Virus record (IMG/VR): IMGVR_UViG_3300031857_001033
Location: 1 to 28,490 of that record
From: a virus
Strand: one strand, 5' to 3'
Length of the DNA: 28,490 nucleotides
Part shown: positions 10,862 to 26,872 of the stretch, piece after piece
Numbering within the stretch: the stretch's first letter is position 1
How the letters are laid out: each line of letters begins with the position of its first letter
The notes under the pieces: model-generated
Seen by the model: the letters and a program-made list of their open reading frames with translations, nothing else
Databases searched by the model: none
Told to the model about the DNA's origin: nothing
Position numbers and translations under genes: made by a program

Positions 10862-13800
10862 ATGGCCGACCTAATCAAGCGTAAGGTCATGGCACCCGTT
10901 CAGGGAGCCATGTTCGGGAACTCGGCTGAGATGGACGAGGAACAGCAGTTCCTTGCCACTCTTGCTCCGGAAGAACGAGAGATGGCCGAGTTGGAACTTG
11001 CGGGACCTATCACCGGAGATGAGTTGGCTCAACTCATGGCCGAGGACTCCAAGTACATGCCGACGAAGGATGAGTACGACGTCTACAAACAATGGATGAA
11101 GACCCGTGAGGTCGACGTCATTGACGCTTTTACCAATGGTTTTGGTCAGGTCCTTAGCGACCTTGGCACCGCCATTGATGCCGGATGGGAAGCCGACGAC
11201 AAGATGGCCAAGGCCCTACCTACTCTCTTTGAAGGCTTTGCCCGTGGTACCCGTGACTTCTACGGCATGCTGGCCCAGTCTCAGGACCCAAACAGCGTCC
11301 TGTTCAAGTTCAAGAACGTGCTGGCCGGTGACGGCTCTGACCCTGAAGCCGAATACCAGCAGTTCTTAGCGGCACGTCAATTTAACGCCGTGACCATGGA
11401 CATCATGGAGAACAAGACCACCGGGTCCAAGGAGTTCTTCGGCGTCGAAATTGACAAGGACTTGCTTATCCCCGAGGTGGCTCAAGCCGTTTCCTACATC
11501 GCTGACCCTACCCTTTTCATTCCTTCCGGTGCCTTTGGTGCCGTCGCCAAGGCCGGTGCCAAGGCTATCGGTGCTGGACACTTCGCCGAGAAAATCATCG
11601 CCGCCGCCGGAAAGGCTCAGGCTTTCAAGGATTTGGCCCTTGCTGGCACCCTGCGTATTGCCGGTATGCCCCTTGAACTCGTAGGTCGTGCTACCAGCAG
11701 TACCATTGACGGGGCTGTTGCCCGTGGCTCTGCCTTGTTTGGTGACGTTATCGGCATGAGTCCGGAAACCTTTAACGCCACCCTTCGTGGGGCTGGCCTT
11801 ACGACTACTGCCCTTCAGGTCCCCGGATGGTCTACCGTCTCTGACGCTTACTTTGCCGCCAACGTAATCGGTGGCATCGGCGAAACTCTTGGTGCCGTTG
11901 GCCGTCAGGTCGGCGGACAACAGCGAGGCATCCTTTCTTACGCCAAGCGAGCCTTGCTTGCCGAAGGTGATAAACTCACCCCTCAGGCCAAGCGGATGCT
12001 CCAAATCATCGACACCGCTGACCCGCTGTTTGGCTATGCCTATGCGGCTGGTGAAGGTGCCCTTGAAGGTGCGGCTATTGGTGGTTTCTTGGGTAGCCTT
12101 GCTGGTGGCCTTGAAGGTGCCGCCGCCGGTGCTGGTTCCGGTTCCGCCCTTGGTGCTATTGGTGGAGCCGTAGGTCGTGGCGTCACGGACATTCACAAGG
12201 AACGTACCCGCATCCAAGCGGACATGGTCATCGAAGGACTCAAAGATACTGACACGGTCCAATACGATGCCATGAACACCCTTCGTGCCTTGGGCCGCAA
12301 GCACGACAAGTCCTACGACCACATCATTGTCGGACTTGATACAGTAGCCCCCGGAGCCCGTCTGCACATGCACGATGGGGCTTCTTTCGAGGCTTACCTT
12401 CAGAAGAACAAGTTGGTCGATACCTTTGACCCTGACCGTCCGGGCCGTGTGCTTCGTGGAGAAGACCCTGCCAACCCGCTGATGTACCATCGCTGGGAAG
12501 GTTTCGTGATTCAGAAGGATAAGGATGGTCATACCGAAATCTTCATCAATACGGATTGGGCCCTAGAGAACGCCATGGGACACGAACTGTTCCACGGCAT
12601 CATGCGTTCTTCCGTCTACGCCAAGAACTTTACCGACGCCGTCACTAACAGCATCATCGGTACCCGTGGCCCGAAAGGAGAACTCATCCGAGCCGGTGAG
12701 GTTCCTCCGGCTGAAGCCTATGAGATGTTCAAGCGGTACATTGACATCGAGTACAAGGACCCTGTGGCCAAGAAAGCCAAGATGGACCAGTTGGACGTCG
12801 CCATCAAGGAATGGGAAACCAACGGAAAACTCATCTCTGAGTCCGGATTGGAAGGTCGTGCCATCCTTGAAGACCTTTCTGAGGAGTTCGGTGCTTACTA
12901 CTTCAACCATTGGCTAGACGATAAGTCTCCCGACTACCTTTTCTTCGGCGGTAAACTGCCCGGCATCCGTGGTCTGTTTGACGACATGAAGATGGGCTGG
13001 CTGTCGTTCACCGAGGCCCGACTCAAGAAGTCGATGCCCGGATTCAACTTTTCGGAAACCGTCATTGACCCACGCACCGGCAAGCCTCGTCAGGCTTACA
13101 TTGACGAAGCCTTCCGTCGTCCTAGCGGCCGCACTCGTTTCTCCGCCCTTGACTACCTGATGCGTGATTTGGTCCGTGCCGCATCCGGGGTAAACACCAA
13201 CGACAACATCATCCTGCGTAACATGACTCCGGAGCAACGTGCCCGGTTCATGGATGCTCATGGCCTCGACGGCCTTTTCCGTCGTGACGTCACCGGTGGT
13301 GCCCGTGAGACTTCCGAGGCTCAGATGCGTCGGGAAAATCAGACCCGAGTCAAAGGCATCATCGACACAGTCAATACTATCCCCGCCAACGAGCGTGGGA
13401 CCCAGACCATCGTCGATGTAAACGGAGACACCGCCATCATCGGTACCCTTTCGGACCGTGAACTTGAGGTCATCGTCAAGAACGGCCACATGAGTCAGGC
13501 CCTTGCCGACAAGTACAAGACCATCCGTGAGGTGTCCGGCAACAAGGGCAAGGGTGCCAACGTCCTTCAGTCCAACTACTGGGGCGAATCCATCGAGACT
13601 GGTTCCGGAGTCAACGCTCCCCGTGTGGTCAATACCGGCGGCACTCGCTCGGTTCCGATGACCCGCCGTGTGTTCGTCCCGCACTCGCTTGAGACGGTCA
13701 TTACCCTCAAGAAGAACGGAGATGCCAATTTCGGCGTCCTCGCCCACTCCCTAGACTACGACAACCTTGGTCGCCGCAGTCAGGCCGTGTACGGCATGCC

Positions 13801-16800
13801 CGAAGCCCGGGCCCTGTACAACAACGACTACAACTCGTTCCAAGCGGACTTCTACCGCTACCTCCAGAATCTCAGCGACCCGAACGCCATCCCCTCTGCC
13901 GACCTGTTCGGCGGCGGCGACATTGGTGCCAAGAAGCGTAACTTCTTTCACGAAATCGTGGGCTCCGCCCTTCGTCAGGGTGAAACCTACATCAATCCTC
14001 CCCGTGCTGGCTACGCCGGTCCTGCCGGTCGTGGCGAGTTCTTCGTCTACCAGACCCTGCGTATTGACCGCATGAGCCATGTGGCCGTTCGTCCGGACAT
14101 CGTCCCTTACGACCATTCTCAGGTCTACGACCGCACCCGCCGTAACTACAAGCCGAGCGAACTTGCCGTCGAAGAAGTGCAGGGCGGCCTAATTTACAAG
14201 CACCCGCAGGGGTACAACATCATCAAGCGTGGTTCGATGGCCCGTGCTTACGACCTTGATGGCAAGGAAATCGGCACCTTCTCTGATGCCGAGTCGGCGT
14301 CCCGGGCAATAACCCGTGACCTGAAGCGTCGTGATAACGAGGGCTATGTGGCCACAGTCAGAAAGACCAAGGCAGAACAGCGTATGTTCAAGCCGGTCGA
14401 GTCGAACGAAGCCATGGAAGCCCGACAGAAAGGCGATTTGTTCATGACCGACGCCATGCGTACCTTTGCCGGTACTCACGGAATCATCCGCCAGACCGCA
14501 GACGAATCCTACTCCGACTACTCCAAGAGCATCGTCGAAGGCGTCGTCACCAAGGCTCAGGCCGAACGCATCCTGATGATGGCCGAGGGTGCCTTCAAAG
14601 GTGAGTTGCGTATCCAGCAACTTCAACAGCGACTCGACCTGCTTGAAAGTCAGGGCTCGAACGGAGCCCGTCTTGGCAAGTACAGCAAAGGCATCGAGGA
14701 CGTCATCAACAAGCACTTCAATCCTACGAACGACGCTTTTCTTGCCAGTCGCCCAATGGCGTTCCTTGGAGGTACCGACGCACTTCTGAAGGCCGCCAAG
14801 GATGCACAGTCTCTGGACGAAGTCCTCACCGGATTCGTTTTTGAGTTGGCAGGAAAGAAAAAGGGCGGAACTGGAATGGACATGCGTAGGGCCCGTGAGA
14901 TTACCGCTGAACTGGCTCCTCATGCCAACGAACTGTTCAATCAGGTAAAGATGTTCGGAGAGCGTGAGGCCATACAGAAGGAACTCAAGCGTCCTCAGGT
15001 CGGGCACCATGACTACTACTATGGCCGGGACCGTGCCAATCTTCAGGAAGACGCCCGTCGTGTTTCTCAGGTCCGTGAATACATCGACACGCTTGACCCG
15101 AACAAGAACGTCGAAGGTCTTGGCCAGTACCTTATCGACAATCTTCCGCTTCGACGCATCTACCAGAACGAAGTCTATCTCCAACAGTTCGACACCGGAG
15201 TTCCTTTCGTCGCTACTGTTGTCCATGGCACTCCGAACGTGGACCTAGTCAAGTCCCGTGAGTTTGACCCGTCCCGTGGCGGAGAGACTACCGGTGCCGT
15301 TTCCGCCGCTAAGGCCGTGTTCTTTGCCGCCTCGGACGAGACTGCGATGGCTCCTCTCTATCAGATTGGAAAGCAGACCAACCCTGAGTTCAATCCGGAC
15401 GGCACGGTGGCCAAAGTGAACATGCTCAAGGTCGCCATCAAATCGGACAATCCGTTTGTTGCTGACCTGTCCATGATTCCTCCGGACAAGAAGGTCGGCT
15501 ACCTAGGCATCCGTGGCGTCGTTGAAGAAGCGTTCGCCAAGGGCCATGACGTAGCCGTCATTCACAACGTCCGGGACGGCGGCGACTTCGACACCGTGTT
15601 CGCCATCCGCAACGACCGGGTCAAGGACCTTCATCGTGTCATTGAGACGACGCTGGACAAGGCCGCCGGTCAGACTCCCCTCCCCCGTGGCGACGGAGTC
15701 ACCGTAGGTACCAAGAATCTCAAGCCAGCAGAAGGTGACGCTATCCCTGACTGGCAGACTCAGAGGGCTCAGGATGCTCGGGCAAACCAGCCCCGAGAAC
15801 TCTGGTCCTATCCTGACACCCCCCAGTTCCGTAAGTGGGCCGGTAGACTTCCGTTCATTAAGAGTGAAGATGCCGCAACGAAAACGGCAAACTACGACAA
15901 AGGGTTCGTAACTACCGTATTTAAGGGTGTTAATGTTCGTTCATTCGACAAGTTTTCCGAAAGAAGCGTCGTTGACCCTAATGAACGGTCACTAAAAACT
16001 GACCCTAACTTCTTTATCGGCGATGAGACTGCGGCTGAACGCTATGCCGGTGGAGGTTACACGGACATTAGCGGGTTGAACGAAGATGCCCAAAAGGTGG
16101 CAAGCAGAGGAAAGGCCGACATGTACTATGTCAGGAGTCAAAACCCAGCGAATCTACTTGGGGCACATAAACTAGAACTCAAGAACCCGAAGTTGGCTGA
16201 AGTCATTAGGAAGTACTGGGAGCAGAACATCAGGAAAGAAGGCGGTGACATCCTAGACCCACAGTCCCGTTTCGATAGATTCCTGCTGGAGATTTCCATG
16301 GGTGACTGGCTCAGGCCCAGAAATGAAATGACCACCATGAGCCCATTTGGTAAGTCTTGGAGGATGAGCAACTGGGTTGATTTCCATGAGTACTTGCTCC
16401 AGAACGGCTATGACAGCGTAGTCATTCAAGACAACTCAGTTAGCCTGAAGACACCTACCATCATTGTCGGCCAAGAGACGGCCAACGTAAAGGCTTCCAG
16501 CAACTACGGCGAGTTCTCCCGGAAAGACACCCGGTACAACTTCAAGCCAGCCGAAGGCGACATGCCTAGCGGCCCGCTTCGTGACTTCGAGAGCGTCAAA
16601 GAAGACCGCAACTTCAAGAAGTTCGCAAGGGGCACGGAGATTGTCGACCCTATCGACGATTTCAGCGGCCCGGCAAACTACATTGAAAAGCACGGCGTAG
16701 ACATGAACGGACCGTATGTCCTCATCTGGGACAAGACAGCAAACGCTTGGTTACAGCCGTCTAACGCCACCGGAACGACCATGAGTTTCAAGAAGGGTGC

Positions 16801-19800
16801 TACCTTCTTGGCCTACCATGGCTCTACCAGCAGGGAGCGATTCCAGTTCCTGCGTTCAGACTTGAAGGCCGATGAGTCTTATTGGGCCCGCATGGGTAGC
16901 CCTGACTCGGCCATGGGCACCCACTTCACAAACGACGAGGTACTTGCCAAGAACTTCACCTATCGTGAGATTGACAGGGTCGCCGAAGACTTCCGCCAAG
17001 AAGGCGAATCGTTCAGTTGGCGTGTCAATGAAGACCTTGAGTATGAGAAGCCCGGCCCTCAGGGACCCGGTGGACAGTTGTACGCTGTCGCTGTCCGCAT
17101 GGACAAGCCTATCTACTTCGACTCCGAGGTTCAGTTCCAAGCGGAAATCAGGAACGCCGGTGGTGCCGAACAACTGAAGGCCCGCCTCAAGAAGGACGGA
17201 TACGACGGCATCATCTACAAGATTTACGCCGAGGTTCTGGACCAGAAGAAGAAATTGTCTGGCTACCCGGGCTTTGAACTTACTCCAGACTTCGCCAATC
17301 AGTTCCTTGGCGACAACGTCTTCGGCTACATTCCGTTCGATGCCAAGAAGGTCAAGGACGTCGAGTACAACCGTGGCTCCTTCGACAAGACCAAGAAGGA
17401 CATTCGGATGAAGCCGGTCGAAGGCGACATGGAGCCTACCGGAAAGACTTATGACGTGAACTCTAAACTGTTTACGTCCAAGTTCTTGGGAAGATACGCC
17501 AAAGAAAACCCGGGCATTTTAGATGGTCTTACTATCAAGGTAGACTATGACACGCAAAGTTCTCCATTCAAGGACGAGCAAAGTCCTTATGGAATGGTCA
17601 TCAGGATAGATAACCCATGGGAAGGCGGCGGCAAAGACCCAATCGCACAAATTGGAATCAGGTTTGAACACGACTATGGAGGTTCCCTGTACGGAAAGCA
17701 TGCCTATGTAACCCGTGTTGATGTTCGTAGCGACATGCGAGGCAAGGGGTATGGGAAACTAATCTATTCCGAAGCGGGAGAGCGTGTTCGCTCGCTTGGC
17801 TCAGAAAACATCCTTGGTAGCGTAATCAACAGGGACAACATCCCATTCTACATCAGGGAGGAAATCTTTGGCAAAGGTTCAACCGAACAACCTGACGGCA
17901 AGGGTGGAAGGACCGTAACCAGAATCGACAAGAACGCCTACTACAAGCCAGTCGAAGGCGAAGGCCAGCCTCCTCGCCCCCTCAAGGAGTACCTTGCCGA
18001 AAGAGGTGCTGACTTCAACCCTGAGGAACTCGTTGGTGCCATCGTCAGATACCGCAAGGACGCCGACGACGAGCCTGATAACTTCTGGCGTATCTTGGGA
18101 TACGGTAAGGGCAAGAACGGTCATTTCCTGAAGTACATCAAGGAAAACGAGTACAAGGAAATCATGGATTCCGGGGCTTCTGGCATGCTATTGCAGATGA
18201 AACTCCGGGACGCCACTCAACAATTCGGCGGAACCAAGTACGACAACTACAAGGAAGTCTCCGACCTCACCAAGTGGTTCGGACGAATCTATGACCAGAT
18301 TGAGTTCCCTGCCGGGGAGCAGAAGGTCGAGTTGCCTAAGCCCAAAGCAATCGACACGGGCACCTTCCGTGGCATCCTTGAGGATGTCGAGGCTGGCATC
18401 GACGCCGTGCAGTTCACCAAGGACCACACGACCCAGTTGTACGGAAACAAGTCTGGCACCAAGAAGGGCATCATGAAGGAAGCCGCCGCCGCCTTGGAAG
18501 CCTACGACAAGGCTACGACCCCGGAAGCCAAGGAAGCCGCCATCTCGGAACTCATGGACTCCATCGAGTCGCTCAGGGAAATCCTGAACGAACTAGAGGA
18601 CATTCAATCCAACTCCGAAGCCTTCGAGAACACCGAAGGATACCAGCGTCGTGAGGAACAAATTGAGGCCCTGACCGAGGCTGTCGACGCATTGGATGAC
18701 GCTATTAAGCCGGACGAAACGGGCGGCGATTCCCCTCAGGTCAACATGAAGCCGTATGAGGGTGAGACTAATAATGCCATTGTCCCTGACCGTGGCGTAT
18801 CGACTCCGGTAGGTCACACCTTCATCAAGATTCCTAGAGGTGAGACGCCTGACCCCAAGAAGCACACCTTTGAGCAGTTCCTTGAATGGAAGTCTCGCCC
18901 GGGGAACGGCGGTCAAGTCATTATCCGTGACGCACTAGACTTTATCATCGGTCAGGGTGGCTACATGTCTGCTACGGCGGAGATGCTCAAGACCCTCATC
19001 GAGGATACCAAGTCTGTCTATCGTGGCGACCCTGCTAACAGAATCAGCCTACTTGATAGGTATGTGAATCTTGTAAAGGACGGTGGTCAGGGCGGACCTG
19101 AACGGACCGAAATCCCGAAACCGGGAAGCGACCAATCTCAAAACCAGCCTATGATGGGGACGCTCCTTGACCTCATCGACGAATACAAACAGGTCTGGGC
19201 TACTGGTCGCCGTAAAACCAACTCGCTACCGGCCGAGGGAATCCAAGGTCGTGGATTCGAGGGCGTGTTCTTCGAGGAGGTGATGCACACATTCCACGGA
19301 GAGGCACTAGGGGCCAACTCCGTTCTAGGCGGAGTGCCGTCAGGATTCGAGTCTAGCACCGGGGCACAGGCTGTTCGCAGACTGTTCAAGAGGGTAAGAG
19401 GAGGAAACCTCAACGTAAGCGGAACCCAATGGATTGCCGAGCGAAACAACTTCATCACGGATGTCGGCATGCGTATCAAGAAGTACGAGCGTCAGTTGGC
19501 CTCCGGGACGATTACTCAGGTAGACTTTGACGCCAAGATAGACGGCATGCGTATAGAGATTGCCGCCGCCCGTGTGCTTAGGGTGCATGAACATGCACTC
19601 AACAACATCGACGTAGACGTCCGCAAGACGACCTATGACAAGAAGGGCAACGTATCCAAGGTCGACACAAAGCGTGTCAAACTCATCGACCTGATTAAGA
19701 ACAAGTTGAACTTGGTAGACCCGCTTCAGAACTTCGGCGGTGAGAAGCCGTTTGAGTACGGCAAGCACAACCTAGCAGATGGTTCTTACGTCAAAGTTGA

Positions 19801-20665
19801 AAGCACTATTGTAAGGCACGATGCGAAGTACGACCTTCTAAAGAGCGACGCAGAGAGGTTTGGCAGTAACGTCAACAAGGGTATCTACCGGTTCCAGAAT
19901 CCGATGGAGTTCATGATTATGGCCTTCTCGGACCCATACACGACCGCACTTCTTCGTGACATTCCTGCGGTGGACATGGGCAACCTTGACGTCTATGAGC
20001 GTGGCAAGTCTTCGTTCCCCAAGGACCCGAACGACCCTCTTGGCCAACCAATCCGCCCGAGTTCTCAGCGTGGACTTACTCGCTGGTTCAAGAATCTTGG
20101 CGGCGTAATCGCTCAGTTCTTCGATGCCATCACTAGGTTCTATGACATCAGCAACAGGGGCAAGACTCTGCTTGAACAGAACGTCGAGGAATCGCTCCGT
20201 CTCATCTCTGCTCACCGAGATAAGGACATAAAGCCCCGTCAGGCAAAGCCTACGCCACCGGCTCCACCGCCTACCCCGGCTCCGCCTCCCACGCCGCCTA
20301 CGCCGCCTACGCCGCCTACGCCGCCTACGCCACCCACTCCCCCTACTCCGCCTACGCCGCCTACGCCGCCCACTCCCCCGACGCCGCCCACTCCCCCGAC
20401 GCCGACCCCTACTCCTCCGACGCCGCCGCCGAAGCCTACGCCTAGTCCGCTTCCTGCTCCGGTTAAGCAACCGGCTATCATCTGGAGGTCGTGGACCAAT
20501 AGTACGACCGAAAACGGCTCCATGTGGCGTAATGCCGTGGGTTACAGCATCGTGTACTTGGCTGGCCGTAAGTTCCGTCTCTACAATCCGCAGAACGCCC
20601 TCGTCGGAATCTACAACGACATTGAGGAAGCCAAGCGGCGTGTCAGACGAGACGAACCCAAATGA
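10862..20665 (+). CDS. Giant polyvalent virion protein with protease, ART and GNAT modules
   Basis: The 3267-residue product occupies the T7 gp16 position (gp16 has 1318). Residues 1-460 are helical with hydrophobic Ala/Gly stretches, including a glycine zipper at about 399-440. A zincin-like site follows: H574-E575-L-F-H578, with a candidate third ligand in EEFGA (674-678). Three ADP-ribosyltransferase-like modules start near H1455, about 1680 and H1986. A GNAT-like motif R2293-G-K-G-Y-G-K lies at about 2190-2360. A K-P-x-E motif recurs at 1177, 1621, 1895, 2184, 2362 and 2630, between modules. A Pro/Thr repeat (about 3130-3200) and a small beta-beta-alpha module (3225-3267, resembling 1108-1163) end the protein. 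I infer injection into the host, like T7 gp16 or P1 DarB. No lytic transglycosylase motif was seen in it. Confidence 0.8.
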   Translation: MADLIKRKVMAPVQGAMFGNSAEMDEEQQFLATLAPEEREMAELELAGPITGDELAQLMAEDSKYMPTKDEYDVYKQWMKTREVDVIDAFTNGFGQVLSDLGTAIDAGWEADDKMAKALPTLFEGFARGTRDFYGMLAQSQDPNSVLFKFKNVLAGDGSDPEAEYQQFLAARQFNAVTMDIMENKTTGSKEFFGVEIDKDLLIPEVAQAVSYIADPTLFIPSGAFGAVAKAGAKAIGAGHFAEKIIAAAGKAQAFKDLALAGTLRIAGMPLELVGRATSSTIDGAVARGSALFGDVIGMSPETFNATLRGAGLTTTALQVPGWSTVSDAYFAANVIGGIGETLGAVGRQVGGQQRGILSYAKRALLAEGDKLTPQAKRMLQIIDTADPLFGYAYAAGEGALEGAAIGGFLGSLAGGLEGAAAGAGSGSALGAIGGAVGRGVTDIHKERTRIQADMVIEGLKDTDTVQYDAMNTLRALGRKHDKSYDHIIVGLDTVAPGARLHMHDGASFEAYLQKNKLVDTFDPDRPGRVLRGEDPANPLMYHRWEGFVIQKDKDGHTEIFINTDWALENAMGHELFHGIMRSSVYAKNFTDAVTNSIIGTRGPKGELIRAGEVPPAEAYEMFKRYIDIEYKDPVAKKAKMDQLDVAIKEWETNGKLISESGLEGRAILEDLSEEFGAYYFNHWLDDKSPDYLFFGGKLPGIRGLFDDMKMGWLSFTEARLKKSMPGFNFSETVIDPRTGKPRQAYIDEAFRRPSGRTRFSALDYLMRDLVRAASGVNTNDNIILRNMTPEQRARFMDAHGLDGLFRRDVTGGARETSEAQMRRENQTRVKGIIDTVNTIPANERGTQTIVDVNGDTAIIGTLSDRELEVIVKNGHMSQALADKYKTIREVSGNKGKGANVLQSNYWGESIETGSGVNAPRVVNTGGTRSVPMTRRVFVPHSLETVITLKKNGDANFGVLAHSLDYDNLGRRSQAVYGMPEARALYNNDYNSFQADFYRYLQNLSDPNAIPSADLFGGGDIGAKKRNFFHEIVGSALRQGETYINPPRAGYAGPAGRGEFFVYQTLRIDRMSHVAVRPDIVPYDHSQVYDRTRRNYKPSELAVEEVQGGLIYKHPQGYNIIKRGSMARAYDLDGKEIGTFSDAESASRAITRDLKRRDNEGYVATVRKTKAEQRMFKPVESNEAMEARQKGDLFMTDAMRTFAGTHGIIRQTADESYSDYSKSIVEGVVTKAQAERILMMAEGAFKGELRIQQLQQRLDLLESQGSNGARLGKYSKGIEDVINKHFNPTNDAFLASRPMAFLGGTDALLKAAKDAQSLDEVLTGFVFELAGKKKGGTGMDMRRAREITAELAPHANELFNQVKMFGEREAIQKELKRPQVGHHDYYYGRDRANLQEDARRVSQVREYIDTLDPNKNVEGLGQYLIDNLPLRRIYQNEVYLQQFDTGVPFVATVVHGTPNVDLVKSREFDPSRGGETTGAVSAAKAVFFAASDETAMAPLYQIGKQTNPEFNPDGTVAKVNMLKVAIKSDNPFVADLSMIPPDKKVGYLGIRGVVEEAFAKGHDVAVIHNVRDGGDFDTVFAIRNDRVKDLHRVIETTLDKAAGQTPLPRGDGVTVGTKNLKPAEGDAIPDWQTQRAQDARANQPRELWSYPDTPQFRKWAGRLPFIKSEDAATKTANYDKGFVTTVFKGVNVRSFDKFSERSVVDPNERSLKTDPNFFIGDETAAERYAGGGYTDISGLNEDAQKVASRGKADMYYVRSQNPANLLGAHKLELKNPKLAEVIRKYWEQNIRKEGGDILDPQSRFDRFLLEISMGDWLRPRNEMTTMSPFGKSWRMSNWVDFHEYLLQNGYDSVVIQDNSVSLKTPTIIVGQETANVKASSNYGEFSRKDTRYNFKPAEGDMPSGPLRDFESVKEDRNFKKFARGTEIVDPIDDFSGPANYIEKHGVDMNGPYVLIWDKTANAWLQPSNATGTTMSFKKGATFLAYHGSTSRERFQFLRSDLKADESYWARMGSPDSAMGTHFTNDEVLAKNFTYREIDRVAEDFRQEGESFSWRVNEDLEYEKPGPQGPGGQLYAVAVRMDKPIYFDSEVQFQAEIRNAGGAEQLKARLKKDGYDGIIYKIYAEVLDQKKKLSGYPGFELTPDFANQFLGDNVFGYIPFDAKKVKDVEYNRGSFDKTKKDIRMKPVEGDMEPTGKTYDVNSKLFTSKFLGRYAKENPGILDGLTIKVDYDTQSSPFKDEQSPYGMVIRIDNPWEGGGKDPIAQIGIRFEHDYGGSLYGKHAYVTRVDVRSDMRGKGYGKLIYSEAGERVRSLGSENILGSVINRDNIPFYIREEIFGKGSTEQPDGKGGRTVTRIDKNAYYKPVEGEGQPPRPLKEYLAERGADFNPEELVGAIVRYRKDADDEPDNFWRILGYGKGKNGHFLKYIKENEYKEIMDSGASGMLLQMKLRDATQQFGGTKYDNYKEVSDLTKWFGRIYDQIEFPAGEQKVELPKPKAIDTGTFRGILEDVEAGIDAVQFTKDHTTQLYGNKSGTKKGIMKEAAAALEAYDKATTPEAKEAAISELMDSIESLREILNELEDIQSNSEAFENTEGYQRREEQIEALTEAVDALDDAIKPDETGGDSPQVNMKPYEGETNNAIVPDRGVSTPVGHTFIKIPRGETPDPKKHTFEQFLEWKSRPGNGGQVIIRDALDFIIGQGGYMSATAEMLKTLIEDTKSVYRGDPANRISLLDRYVNLVKDGGQGGPERTEIPKPGSDQSQNQPMMGTLLDLIDEYKQVWATGRRKTNSLPAEGIQGRGFEGVFFEEVMHTFHGEALGANSVLGGVPSGFESSTGAQAVRRLFKRVRGGNLNVSGTQWIAERNNFITDVGMRIKKYERQLASGTITQVDFDAKIDGMRIEIAAARVLRVHEHALNNIDVDVRKTTYDKKGNVSKVDTKRVKLIDLIKNKLNLVDPLQNFGGEKPFEYGKHNLADGSYVKVESTIVRHDAKYDLLKSDAERFGSNVNKGIYRFQNPMEFMIMAFSDPYTTALLRDIPAVDMGNLDVYERGKSSFPKDPNDPLGQPIRPSSQRGLTRWFKNLGGVIAQFFDAITRFYDISNRGKTLLEQNVEESLRLISAHRDKDIKPRQAKPTPPAPPPTPAPPPTPPTPPTPPTPPTPPTPPTPPTPPTPPTPPTPPTPPTPTPTPPTPPPKPTPSPLPAPVKQPAIIWRSWTNSTTENGSMWRNAVGYSIVYLAGRKFRLYNPQNALVGIYNDIEEAKRRVRRDEPK
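20245..20470 (+). repeat. Pro-Pro-Thr coding tandem repeat in the giant gene
   Basis: A nine-base unit (consensus ccgcctacg) is repeated with drift and encodes a Pro-Pro-Thr tract of roughly 50-60 residues including flanks. The most regular copies are at about 20289-20330. Later copies vary at third positions (acg, act; ccg, ccc) while keeping the amino acids, so selection seems to act on the protein. It is likely an extended polyproline linker holding the last small module away from the body. The array may expand or contract by slippage. Confidence 0.85.
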
Positions 20666-24358: not shown

Positions 24359-25030
24359 TCAAGCCCCAGCCCCGACGAGGGTGTAGTAATCCCGGAACCG
24401 CCGGACCAAGGCGGCCGACATTTCCTTGTCGTCGAAGCGGTCGACGAGGGCCTGACCATTGAAGTTGGTCGTGATGATGGTAGGCCGCATGGCCGTGGAC
24501 CTTTCGTCTAGGACGGCAAACAGGTCGGAGACGAGCCGGGCGGTCCCCCTCTCCTTCCCGAGGTCGTCAAAGACCAGCAGGTCCACCTTGATGAGGTCTT
24601 CCAGCATCTTGCTGTGGGACTTCTCGGTGAAGGATTCCTCGATGAGCCCCTCAAACTTACGCATGGTCAGGAACCGGTAAGGCATATTCTGGTCCTTGCT
24701 TGCCCGGTCCAGCCACAGCCGGTTGACGACGTGCCAAGCCAGCCGGGTCTTACCTACGCCCGTTGTGCCGTGGAGCAAAAGCCCGGACTTCTGTTCGTTC
24801 GGAACCCACTCCGACGCCGCTTGCAATCGGGGATGCAACTTGCTCACCTCCGTTCCACGGAACAGTAGCGGATAGGACGGGACGAACTTCGGGTCTTCAA
24901 GCCCGTCGTGCCGCACACGCTCCGGGTCAAGATGCTCTCGGCACCTGTGGTAGCGGGTCAACTTGCCTTCGGCGTTCACCAGAAGGGCACAGCGTTTGCC
25001 ACAATGGCAAGCCACATCAAAACTGCTCAT
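24359..25030 (-). CDS. DnaC/IstB-like AAA+ helicase loader
   Basis: The 223-residue product has a small Cys/His cluster at its N-terminus (C8, C10, C14, C30, H33), a possible zinc site. An AAA+ ATPase core follows: Walker A G88-T-T-G-V-G-K-T95, Walker B DLLVFDDLGKE, a sensor-1 strand PTIITTNFNG and a C-terminal arginine-rich segment (AALVRRFRDY). This matches DnaC-type loaders, which place the replicative helicase at an origin. The upstream gene is a lambda-O-like origin-binding candidate and overlaps this ATG by 14 bases, the O/P-type pairing. The helicase itself is not in the window, so the phage may recruit the host enzyme or encode it elsewhere. Confidence 0.85.
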   Translation of the reverse strand: MSSFDVACHCGKRCALLVNAEGKLTRYHRCREHLDPERVRHDGLEDPKFVPSYPLLFRGTEVSKLHPRLQAASEWVPNEQKSGLLLHGTTGVGKTRLAWHVVNRLWLDRASKDQNMPYRFLTMRKFEGLIEESFTEKSHSKMLEDLIKVDLLVFDDLGKERGTARLVSDLFAVLDERSTAMRPTIITTNFNGQALVDRFDDKEMSAALVRRFRDYYTLVGAGA

Positions 25031-25688
25031 GGTCGTTCTTGGTTAGGGGTTTGGTTTGCTTCGTAGATTTGCGGACAGGGAACAAGCCCTTCCATCCGTT
25101 GCGGATAGAAGTCTCGATGCACTCGATGGCTTCCTCGGCGGTCATCTTGTTGAGGAACTCCAACTGACCGATGTAGGTGAGATAGGGAACCTTCTTCTTC
25201 GGGAAGGCATACTGAACCCAGCGATGCCATGCCGCCGAGAACTCGGGGACGGTCATGTGTGCTGGTTGCTGGGTCAACATGAAGTCAGGTCCCTTTGTAT
25301 CTCTATTCTCTTTCTTATTATCTTTTCTATTGGACGAAGTGGGGTTCGTCCCCCCCACGAACTGTGGTTCGCCCCCCCCACGAACTGTGGTTCGTCCCCC
25401 CTCCCGGGCAAAAGACGCCGTGCTGATAGTCGTGATAACCCTTTCATACTCGGTGACTTGCTTGCGGATGATAAGGGAATGTTGCTCCAACTCTTGCAGG
25501 AGATTCTGCACATGGCGTTCGGAGCATCCCACAATCTTGGAGAAGTAATCGTTGCTGGCCGTGCATCCGCTGGCATCCAAGGCCATGATGATGGAGTACA
25601 GGACCTTGGCCGTAGGCGTCAGGTCAGGGTTGAGGATGACCTCACGGGGAATCCACACCCCGCAGAAGGCGTCGGGAATCTTGCTCAT
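25017..25688 (-). CDS. Lambda O-like winged-helix replication initiator
   Basis: I chose the ATG at 25688, which overlaps the stop of the small upstream gene (ATGA), giving 223 residues. A longer frame from 25724 would overlap that gene by 40 bases. Residues about 20-90 form a winged helix-turn-helix (VLYSIIMALDASG, SNDYFSKIVGCSERHVQNLL, then a wing), as in phage replication proteins of the O type. A low-complexity linker (about 95-135) carries DNA repeats and an AT-rich tract read as charged residues. The C-terminal part (about 140-223; TVPEFSAAWHRWVQYAFP) may bind the loader encoded next door. The likely role is binding the origin located inside its own gene and bringing in the DnaC-like protein. 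Confidence 0.75.
   Translation of the reverse strand: MSKIPDAFCGVWIPREVILNPDLTPTAKVLYSIIMALDASGCTASNDYFSKIVGCSERHVQNLLQELEQHSLIIRKQVTEYERVITTISTASFAREGGRTTVRGGGEPQFVGGTNPTSSNRKDNKKENRDTKGPDFMLTQQPAHMTVPEFSAAWHRWVQYAFPKKKVPYLTYIGQLEFLNKMTAEEAIECIETSIRNGWKGLFPVRKSTKQTKPLTKNDHEQF
25293..25401. other. Candidate replication origin inside the O-like gene
   Basis: The iterons at 25343-25401 lie next to an AT-rich, strand-asymmetric tract at about 25293-25332, where the + strand is almost all pyrimidine (ctattctctttcttattatc and flanks). Iterons beside an AT-rich duplex-unwinding tract, within the linker-coding part of the initiator gene, is the plan of the lambda origin in gene O. The next gene is a helicase loader. 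This is a positional and structural argument, and no origin activity can be shown from sequence alone. Confidence 0.6.
25343..25401. repeat. 23-bp palindromic iterons in the replication gene
   Basis: Two full copies of a 23-base unit start at 25357 and 25380, with a partial copy before them (25343-25356). Each has the palindrome CGAAC-TGTG-GTTCG (25358-25371 and 25381-25394) followed by a C-run of six to eight. On the coding strand the runs are G-tracts. The period is not a multiple of three, so the copies are read in different frames (RTTVRGG, then EPQFVGG). The repeats are therefore kept as DNA, not as peptide. Protein-binding iterons are the simplest reading. Confidence 0.8.
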
Positions 25689-25834
25689 CGGTTGCACTTG
25701 TTGAGAGAGAACAGGACCTTCCATCGTTCCCTGATGGCGGCCATGGTTTCCTTGACGACCCGCCTTTCGGTAGGCGTCAGTTGTTTGAGTCCGGGTTTCA
25801 TTATCTCTGGTCTACGTTTCTGCTTCTTCTTCAT
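25685..25834 (-). CDS. 49-residue basic protein
   Basis: This short frame links its neighbours. The ATG at 25834 overlaps the stop of the upstream 100-codon frame (ATGA), and its TGA overlaps the ATG chosen for the O-like protein (ATGA). The product is basic (MKKKQKRRPEIMKPG at the start) and then forms one helix (TERRVVKETMAAIRERWKV). An internal ATG at 25801 is possible. The double overlap suggests a translated coupling peptide or small nucleic-acid-binding protein. No family was recognised. Confidence 0.55.
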   Translation of the reverse strand: MKKKQKRRPEIMKPGLKQLTPTERRVVKETMAAIRERWKVLFSLNKCNR

Positions 25835-26671: not shown

Positions 26672-26872
26672 ATGGAAATACTCGTAATGCTAGGACTATG
26701 CTTTGTGGCCGTCGGAGTGCCTATCTACATAGTCTGTCATCTGGCGGCCCTATTCGGGCCGGATTCGTTTATCAAGAAGAACCCCCCCGGGCCACACATC
26801 AATCATCTTCACAGATTCTACGAACGAGGGACGGCCGCTGGTTCGTCGGCAAGAAAAGGTCGGCGAAAATAA
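26672..26872 (+). CDS. Small membrane ORF overlapping RusA-like gene
   Basis: The ATG at 26672 gives 66 residues with one strong hydrophobic segment (MEILVMLGLCFVAVGVPIYI, extending to about 27) and a basic, Pro/Gly-containing tail ending KGRRK. It begins just after the divergent intergenic region. It overlaps the RusA-like frame by 175 bases in another reading frame. Only one of the two may be fully used in this stretch, because RusA proteins usually start close to the conserved domain. Translation is plausible but unproven. Confidence 0.4.
   Translation: MEILVMLGLCFVAVGVPIYIVCHLAALFGPDSFIKKNPPGPHINHLHRFYERGTAAGSSARKGRRK

Follow-up and report, generated by a model that had tools for sequence, protein, structure and literature searches.

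A probable lambda-style replication origin within the linker-coding part of a phage initiator gene

The replication origin of phage lambda comprises O-binding iterons and an AT-rich tract located in the middle of gene O (PMC7466680). In pSK41, a staphylococcal RepA_N plasmid, the origin lies in the middle of rep and encodes a linker that is dispensable; in the hybrid plasmid pPR9, both the pSK41 domain and the origin region are replaced, the N-terminal part being one that carries a pfam13730 HTH and resembles a phage protein (PMC5703833). Here we describe a locus in 28,490 nucleotides of viral DNA (IMG/VR record IMGVR_UViG_3300031857_001033; hereafter the window), for which an earlier note had proposed a lambda-style origin inside a lambda-O-like gene.

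As in lambda, the candidate origin lies within the initiator gene, between the parts coding for the DNA-binding and the C-terminal regions; dyad iterons (20–24 bp in lambda) are followed by an AT tract, and a replication gene (P in lambda) is directly downstream. As a positive control, the annotated iterons of lambda were recovered at 20/24/23 bp in gene O, with the P gene then downstream. Unlike lambda, which has four iterons, the window has three, and the dyad sequences are unrelated. The G-tracts of lambda are within the iterons, whereas those of the window are between the dyads; the window initiator scores with HTH_36 rather than with the Phage_rep_O/TIGR01610 models of lambda O, and the loader is a DnaC-like AAA+ protein, unlike that of lambda. 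The locus shares with pSK41 an in-gene origin coding for a linker, and with pPR9 a pfam13730 HTH in the N-terminal part. However, pSK41 and pPR9 are plasmids and the window is from a phage, and the RepA_N binding sites and the contact between C-terminal domain and DnaG primase are particular to the plasmids.

Four isolated phages that matched in the initiator protein search, Lactobacillus PL-1, Pseudomonas HU1 and Cruim01, and Flavonifractor Cormatin, also carry in-gene repeats with A-rich centres at 20–24 bp, and in PL-1, HU1 and Cormatin a helicase gene follows the initiator gene. A C-rich spacer (CCCCTCC) was present in Cormatin only, the units shown for PL-1, HU1 and Cruim01 being without homopolymer spacers. 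The window joins this known class of in-gene origins and belongs to a branch combining HTH_36 initiators, DnaC-like loaders and G:C-tract spacers.

Anatomy of the initiator gene, iterons and AT tract

The initiator gene (25017..25724, minus strand) encodes a 235-residue O-like protein recognized by Pfam HTH_36 and by PHROG 270, 678 and 345. The match to HTH_36 (PF13730) has an E-value of 1.6e-11 and 44.2 bits, against a Pfam gathering score of 25, and the domain was found in 51/51 aligned family members. Among the O-like PHROGs, 678 was matched at 1.3e-12 (and by 51/51 members of the alignment) and 345 at 3.8e-4; the corresponding values for lambda O are 1.7e-35 and 5.2e-17. At an E-value of 0.1 the window initiator matched neither Phage_rep_O (PF04492) nor TIGR01610, which lambda O does match, and PF04492 is absent from the 25 families listed for the 51 relatives. 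Likewise, no RepA_N domain was matched in Pfam at E 0.1, nor does one appear among the families listed for the relatives. Judged by its domain matches, the window initiator is an HTH_36 initiator outside the Pfam/NCBIfam domain family of lambda O itself; "lambda-O-like" is apt at the PHROG level and does not extend to the domain models of lambda O.

An AlphaFold2 model built from the 51-sequence alignment displayed a confident winged-helix DNA-binding domain (residues 27–99; 25428..25646, minus strand; pLDDT mostly >90) with its recognition helix at residues 69–81 (25482..25520, minus strand), a low-confidence stretch at residues 109–138, and a helical C-terminal domain (residues 146–235; 25020..25289, minus strand) that may contact the loader or the helicase and in which W166, W169, S206, I207, G210 and W211 are conserved in the alignment. 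Among solved structures, the winged helix matched plasmid RepA N-terminal domains best, with Z about 10 (4pql, Z 10.6), barely above the Z of 8–9.8 reached by many unrelated winged helices; 5kbj, among the RepA-type matches, is a Rep–DNA complex. A PDB sequence search with the initiator family profile returned no relative, and no solved structure of lambda O was found by sequence.

The next gene (24359..25030, minus strand), whose start shares 14 nt with the end of the initiator gene, encodes the DnaC-like AAA+ helicase loader expected from the earlier note (PHROG_50, 4.3e-27; an IstB/DnaC-type ATPase). An Erf-type annealing protein, a RusA resolvase and an exonuclease VIII-like protein are encoded near the initiator gene. 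Elsewhere in the window, a single reading frame of 3267 amino acids (10862–20665) closes with a long repeat of Pro-Pro-Thr and a short tail that is conserved; in L001, the nearest relative, this tail stands after an Ala-Pro repeat.

Repeat and dyad scans located three tandem units at 25334–25356, 25357–25379 and 25380–25402, at spacings of 23 and 23 bp, with 86–91% identity to the reference copy. The repeats had been described as 23-base palindromes; the 23-bp periodicity is correct, but the palindrome occupies only the inner 16 bp of each unit (plus strand ACGAACTGTGGTTCGT, arms 6-4-6). The dyads, which have no strand, are ACGAAGTGGGGTTCGT in the AT-tract-adjacent iteron (25334..25349), ACGAACTGTGGTTCGC in the middle one (25357..25372) and ACGAACTGTGGTTCGT in the AT-tract-distal one (25380..25395). 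Their core is ACGAAC-N4-GTTCGT, from which two copies differ by 1 mismatch and one by 0. Within the window, ten sites match the dyad with up to two mismatches (1.5 expected), a count reached by no shuffle, and the three-dyad score of the linker was reached by 0/40 linker shuffles. As had been noted from the letters, the copies lie in linker-coding DNA and are translated in different frames (1, 0 and 2): the units encode residues 108–131, in the low-confidence, predicted disordered stretch at 109–138.

Seven degenerate dyad copies, each with 2 mismatches, were observed outside the origin (24783, 24882, 25940, 26831, 6520, 10938 and 15894). Their count was the highest among 60 permuted arms, and four lie within 1.5 kb of the origin, a mild excess; they are possibly weak extra binding sites or an effect of base composition.

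The pyrimidine-rich AT tract that the earlier note placed beside the repeats was localized to 25291..25332 (no strand assigned), on the C-terminal-coding side of the iterons. It is 71% AT and pyrimidine-rich on the plus strand, and the 40-mer with the highest AT content in the whole window (28,490 bases) falls within it. Among codons specifying N, D, K, E, Y or I, 481/565 within the tract ended in A/T, as opposed to 1521/3594 elsewhere in the genes (p 5e-86, counted over 57 anchored genes of which many are related, such that the value is not independent per gene); in the window alone, the figures were 7/9 and 16/63 (p 0.004). This codon bias indicates that base composition is under selection over and above the encoded amino acids. 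An unwinding element, the role we propose for the tract, would be expected to show this. GC skew, suggested earlier as a check, was uninformative as an origin marker: its cumulative minimum at 21.4 kb follows the switch in gene orientation and not the iterons.

Conserved architecture and varying sequence among relatives

Relatives were gathered by a loader search and then by an initiator-family search, resulting in >80 viral contigs, and reduction to distinct origins with an AT-tract anchor left 56. The repeats were registered by their sequence identity to each other, not by symmetry, and the AT-proximal iteron was placed solely by how far it lies from the AT tract. A first dyad scan considered even centres only, which misses the odd-centred iterons of lambda and mis-registers a few relatives; the anchored analysis was used instead.

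A layout of mostly three dyads at 22–23 bp followed by an AT tract is shared by about 56 distinct origins, with spacings of 22/23 bp in 33 and 23/23 bp in 21 (54/56). The cores are lineage-specific: GGCAA-N4-TTGCC, TGCAG-N4-CTGCA, TGCGG-N4-CCGCA, GCCGA-N4-TCGGC, GGAAG-N4-CTTCC, GGATG-N4-CATCC and ATGCAC-N4-GTGCAT, besides ACGAAC-N4-GTTCGT in the window. Across the 36 distinct sequences of the AT-proximal iteron, 154/180 arm cells pair, as compared with a mean of 103 and a maximum of 123 in 2000 column shuffles. The same dyad, GGCAAAAAATTGCC, read in different frames encodes the unrelated peptides GKKLP, RQKIA and VAKNC. Since identical dyads specify unrelated peptides while the arms pair, it is the symmetry at the DNA level that is kept. 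The earlier statement that the DNA itself is conserved therefore applies to the architecture, but not to the iteron sequence, which changes between lineages together with the protein.

Two relatives, L004 (2564–3011, the same as L030) and L021 (1229–1586, the same as L089), have one iteron each and an initiator gene split by a frame break. Relative to L023, L021 is missing exactly two 23-bp units, with a 21-nt exact repeat at the junction; these cases may represent real loss or assembly collapse.

Mutual information between half-site bases and HTH residues associated the outer base with residue 73 (z 18) and the next base with residue 70 (z 23), both of which are in the recognition helix. Gln73 occurs with a T/C outer base in 22/22 cases and Arg/Lys73 with G in 26/27 (p 5e-13). 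Between HTH domains of high similarity (L007/L012/L015 versus L008/L062), E-to-V and R-to-Q substitutions accompany a change of the iterons from GG to TG. The first iteron of L008 and L062 is a hybrid, GGCAA...TTGCA, composed of a GGCAA half and a TGCAA half, their other iterons being of the TG type; it is apparently a leftover of the old type and marks an intermediate step in switching specificity. The tree implies 11 changes of residue 73, but only 4 independent pairs are on well-supported branches; these pairs were concordant with few exceptions and in no case opposed (sign test, p 0.125). With about 100 bp between them, the HTH and the iterons can be exchanged as one block, and the association is partly due to shared ancestry and linkage. 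Since the dyad sequence follows residues 70 and 73 across lineages, the repeats are very probably the binding sites of the initiator.

The capsids of several related phages are 74–84% identical to that of the window, whereas their initiators are about 35–38% identical, and between the window and L001 the C-terminal DNA is 81% identical and the HTH DNA 57%. Both contrasts would fit an exchange of replication modules. No close relative was found in the named phage collection (best initiator match 29%, best capsid match 34%), and bacterial genome contigs searched for a host yielded only remote initiators. One relative, L010 (record G007, 88,287 bases), contains two major capsid genes like that of the window, 84% and 59% identical, and may be two phages or prophages joined.

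G:C-tract spacers between the dyads

The coding-strand G-runs of six to eight reported previously are present, as plus-strand C6, C8 and C7 starting at 25396, 25372 and 25350. On the coding (minus) strand, the G6 run (25396..25401) flanks the distal iteron and precedes the first dyad, and the G8 (25372..25379) and G7 (25350..25356) spacers separate the dyads. Among 112 spacers, 66 possess a G-run and 32 a C-run (≥4), leaving 14 with neither, half of which are GGGAGGG-like; the background rate of such runs in other 7-nt gene windows is 2.1%. A further C7 run was observed in the window outside the origin, at 26782–26788, near the start of the RusA reading frame.

The earlier note had remarked that the G-runs might form G-quadruplexes, and a coding-strand quadruplex, or an R-loop stabilized by the G-runs, could in principle aid opening or regulate initiation: runs of 6–8 recur, and the G4Hunter score peaks at 1.44 in the window and reaches about 2 in some relatives. 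Yet both spacers are coding-strand C-runs in 14 origins and five more have one C-spacer and one G-spacer; on the tree, the strand has switched at least three times in the AT-proximal spacer and six in the second spacer; G4Hunter is negative where the runs are C on the coding strand; and neither run is present in L093 or L097. Given these changes of strand between relatives, a strand-specific quadruplex is unlikely as the conserved function, and we regard this explanation as improbable.

The conserved trait is a G:C-rich duplex between the dyads, and the runs are better read as G:C duplex spacers. No description of such spacers as a conserved trait was found, and our literature search on G-rich iteron spacers, or on a phage iteron with a G-quadruplex, returned nothing. 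A possible rationale for homopolymers is that G- or C-runs translate as Gly or Pro in any frame, and a possible physical role is that of a stiff or melting-resistant duplex. We tentatively suggest, as a proposal somewhat short of an even chance, that in-gene origins with such spacers form a distinct class in which the spacers are functional, serving as a stiff duplex clamp, indifferent to strand, which phases initiator dimers and is neutral to translation because Gly or Pro linkers result in every frame.

Proposed origin and alternative explanations

We consider it highly likely that the locus is the phage's own replication origin, embedded lambda-style in the linker-coding part of the initiator gene. 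The proposal made from the letters is thereby upheld by the anatomy, the about 56 relatives, the dyad co-variation, the AT-biased codons and the co-variation of helix and half-site. Anatomy, conservation, dyad co-variation, codon bias and helix/half-site co-variation were computed here; binding, opening, helicase loading and replication are argued by analogy with lambda and the in-gene plasmid origins. By that analogy, the winged-helix domains of the initiator would bind the three dyads with one subunit per half-site, and the bound initiators would form a nucleoprotein complex whose strain on the neighbouring AT tract opens it. The C-terminal domain of the initiator, together with the DnaC-like loader, would then bring the replicative helicase of the host to this opened region. 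As duplex spacers, the G:C runs would lie roughly one helical turn away from the centre of each dyad and be read as a Gly or Pro linker whatever the frame.

The dyads might instead be operators through which the initiator represses or tunes its own operon, the origin being elsewhere. The winged-helix fold resembles MarR-type repressors, the sites are within a transcribed operon, and the mild local excess of degenerate dyads (24783, 24882, 25940 and 26831) would suit such a role. However, the sites are about 320 bp inside the gene and not at its start, the adjoining AT tract with its selected AT-ending codons is unneeded by an operator, the neighbouring gene encodes a helicase loader, and lambda and pSK41/pPR9-type replicons use the same layout as an origin. 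We therefore judge the operator explanation to have only a slim chance.

Slippage on the homopolymers, producing a truncated initiator that binds iterons, lacks the loader function and damps replication, is less probable again. The frame-broken relatives L004 and L021 would be in line with it, as would the frame shift that a change in unit number brings about, 23 not being divisible by 3; but nearly all other relatives are in frame, and for the broken cases a loss of repeat units or a collapse in assembly is a better fit than programmed slippage. That the repeats are a protein feature only, a low-complexity Gly/Pro linker maintained by tandem duplication with no DNA role, is almost certainly wrong: the encoded stretch is predicted to be disordered and G- or C-runs give Gly or Pro in every frame, but the frame and co-variation tests contradict it, the copies lying in different frames with differing peptides while the dyad is kept, the arms co-varying and the half-sites following the recognition helix.

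Read as an origin, the locus carries the lambda layout over to a large set of uncultured phages whose initiators belong to another family, and it raises the question of what role conserved G:C-tract spacers play at origins. The >50 natural pairs of origin and initiator, in which the site and the helix that reads it change together, make replication specificity and compatibility directly testable. If the clamp reading is true, and together with the correspondence between half-site and helix, the family would constitute a natural series of re-specified, mutually compatible replicons.
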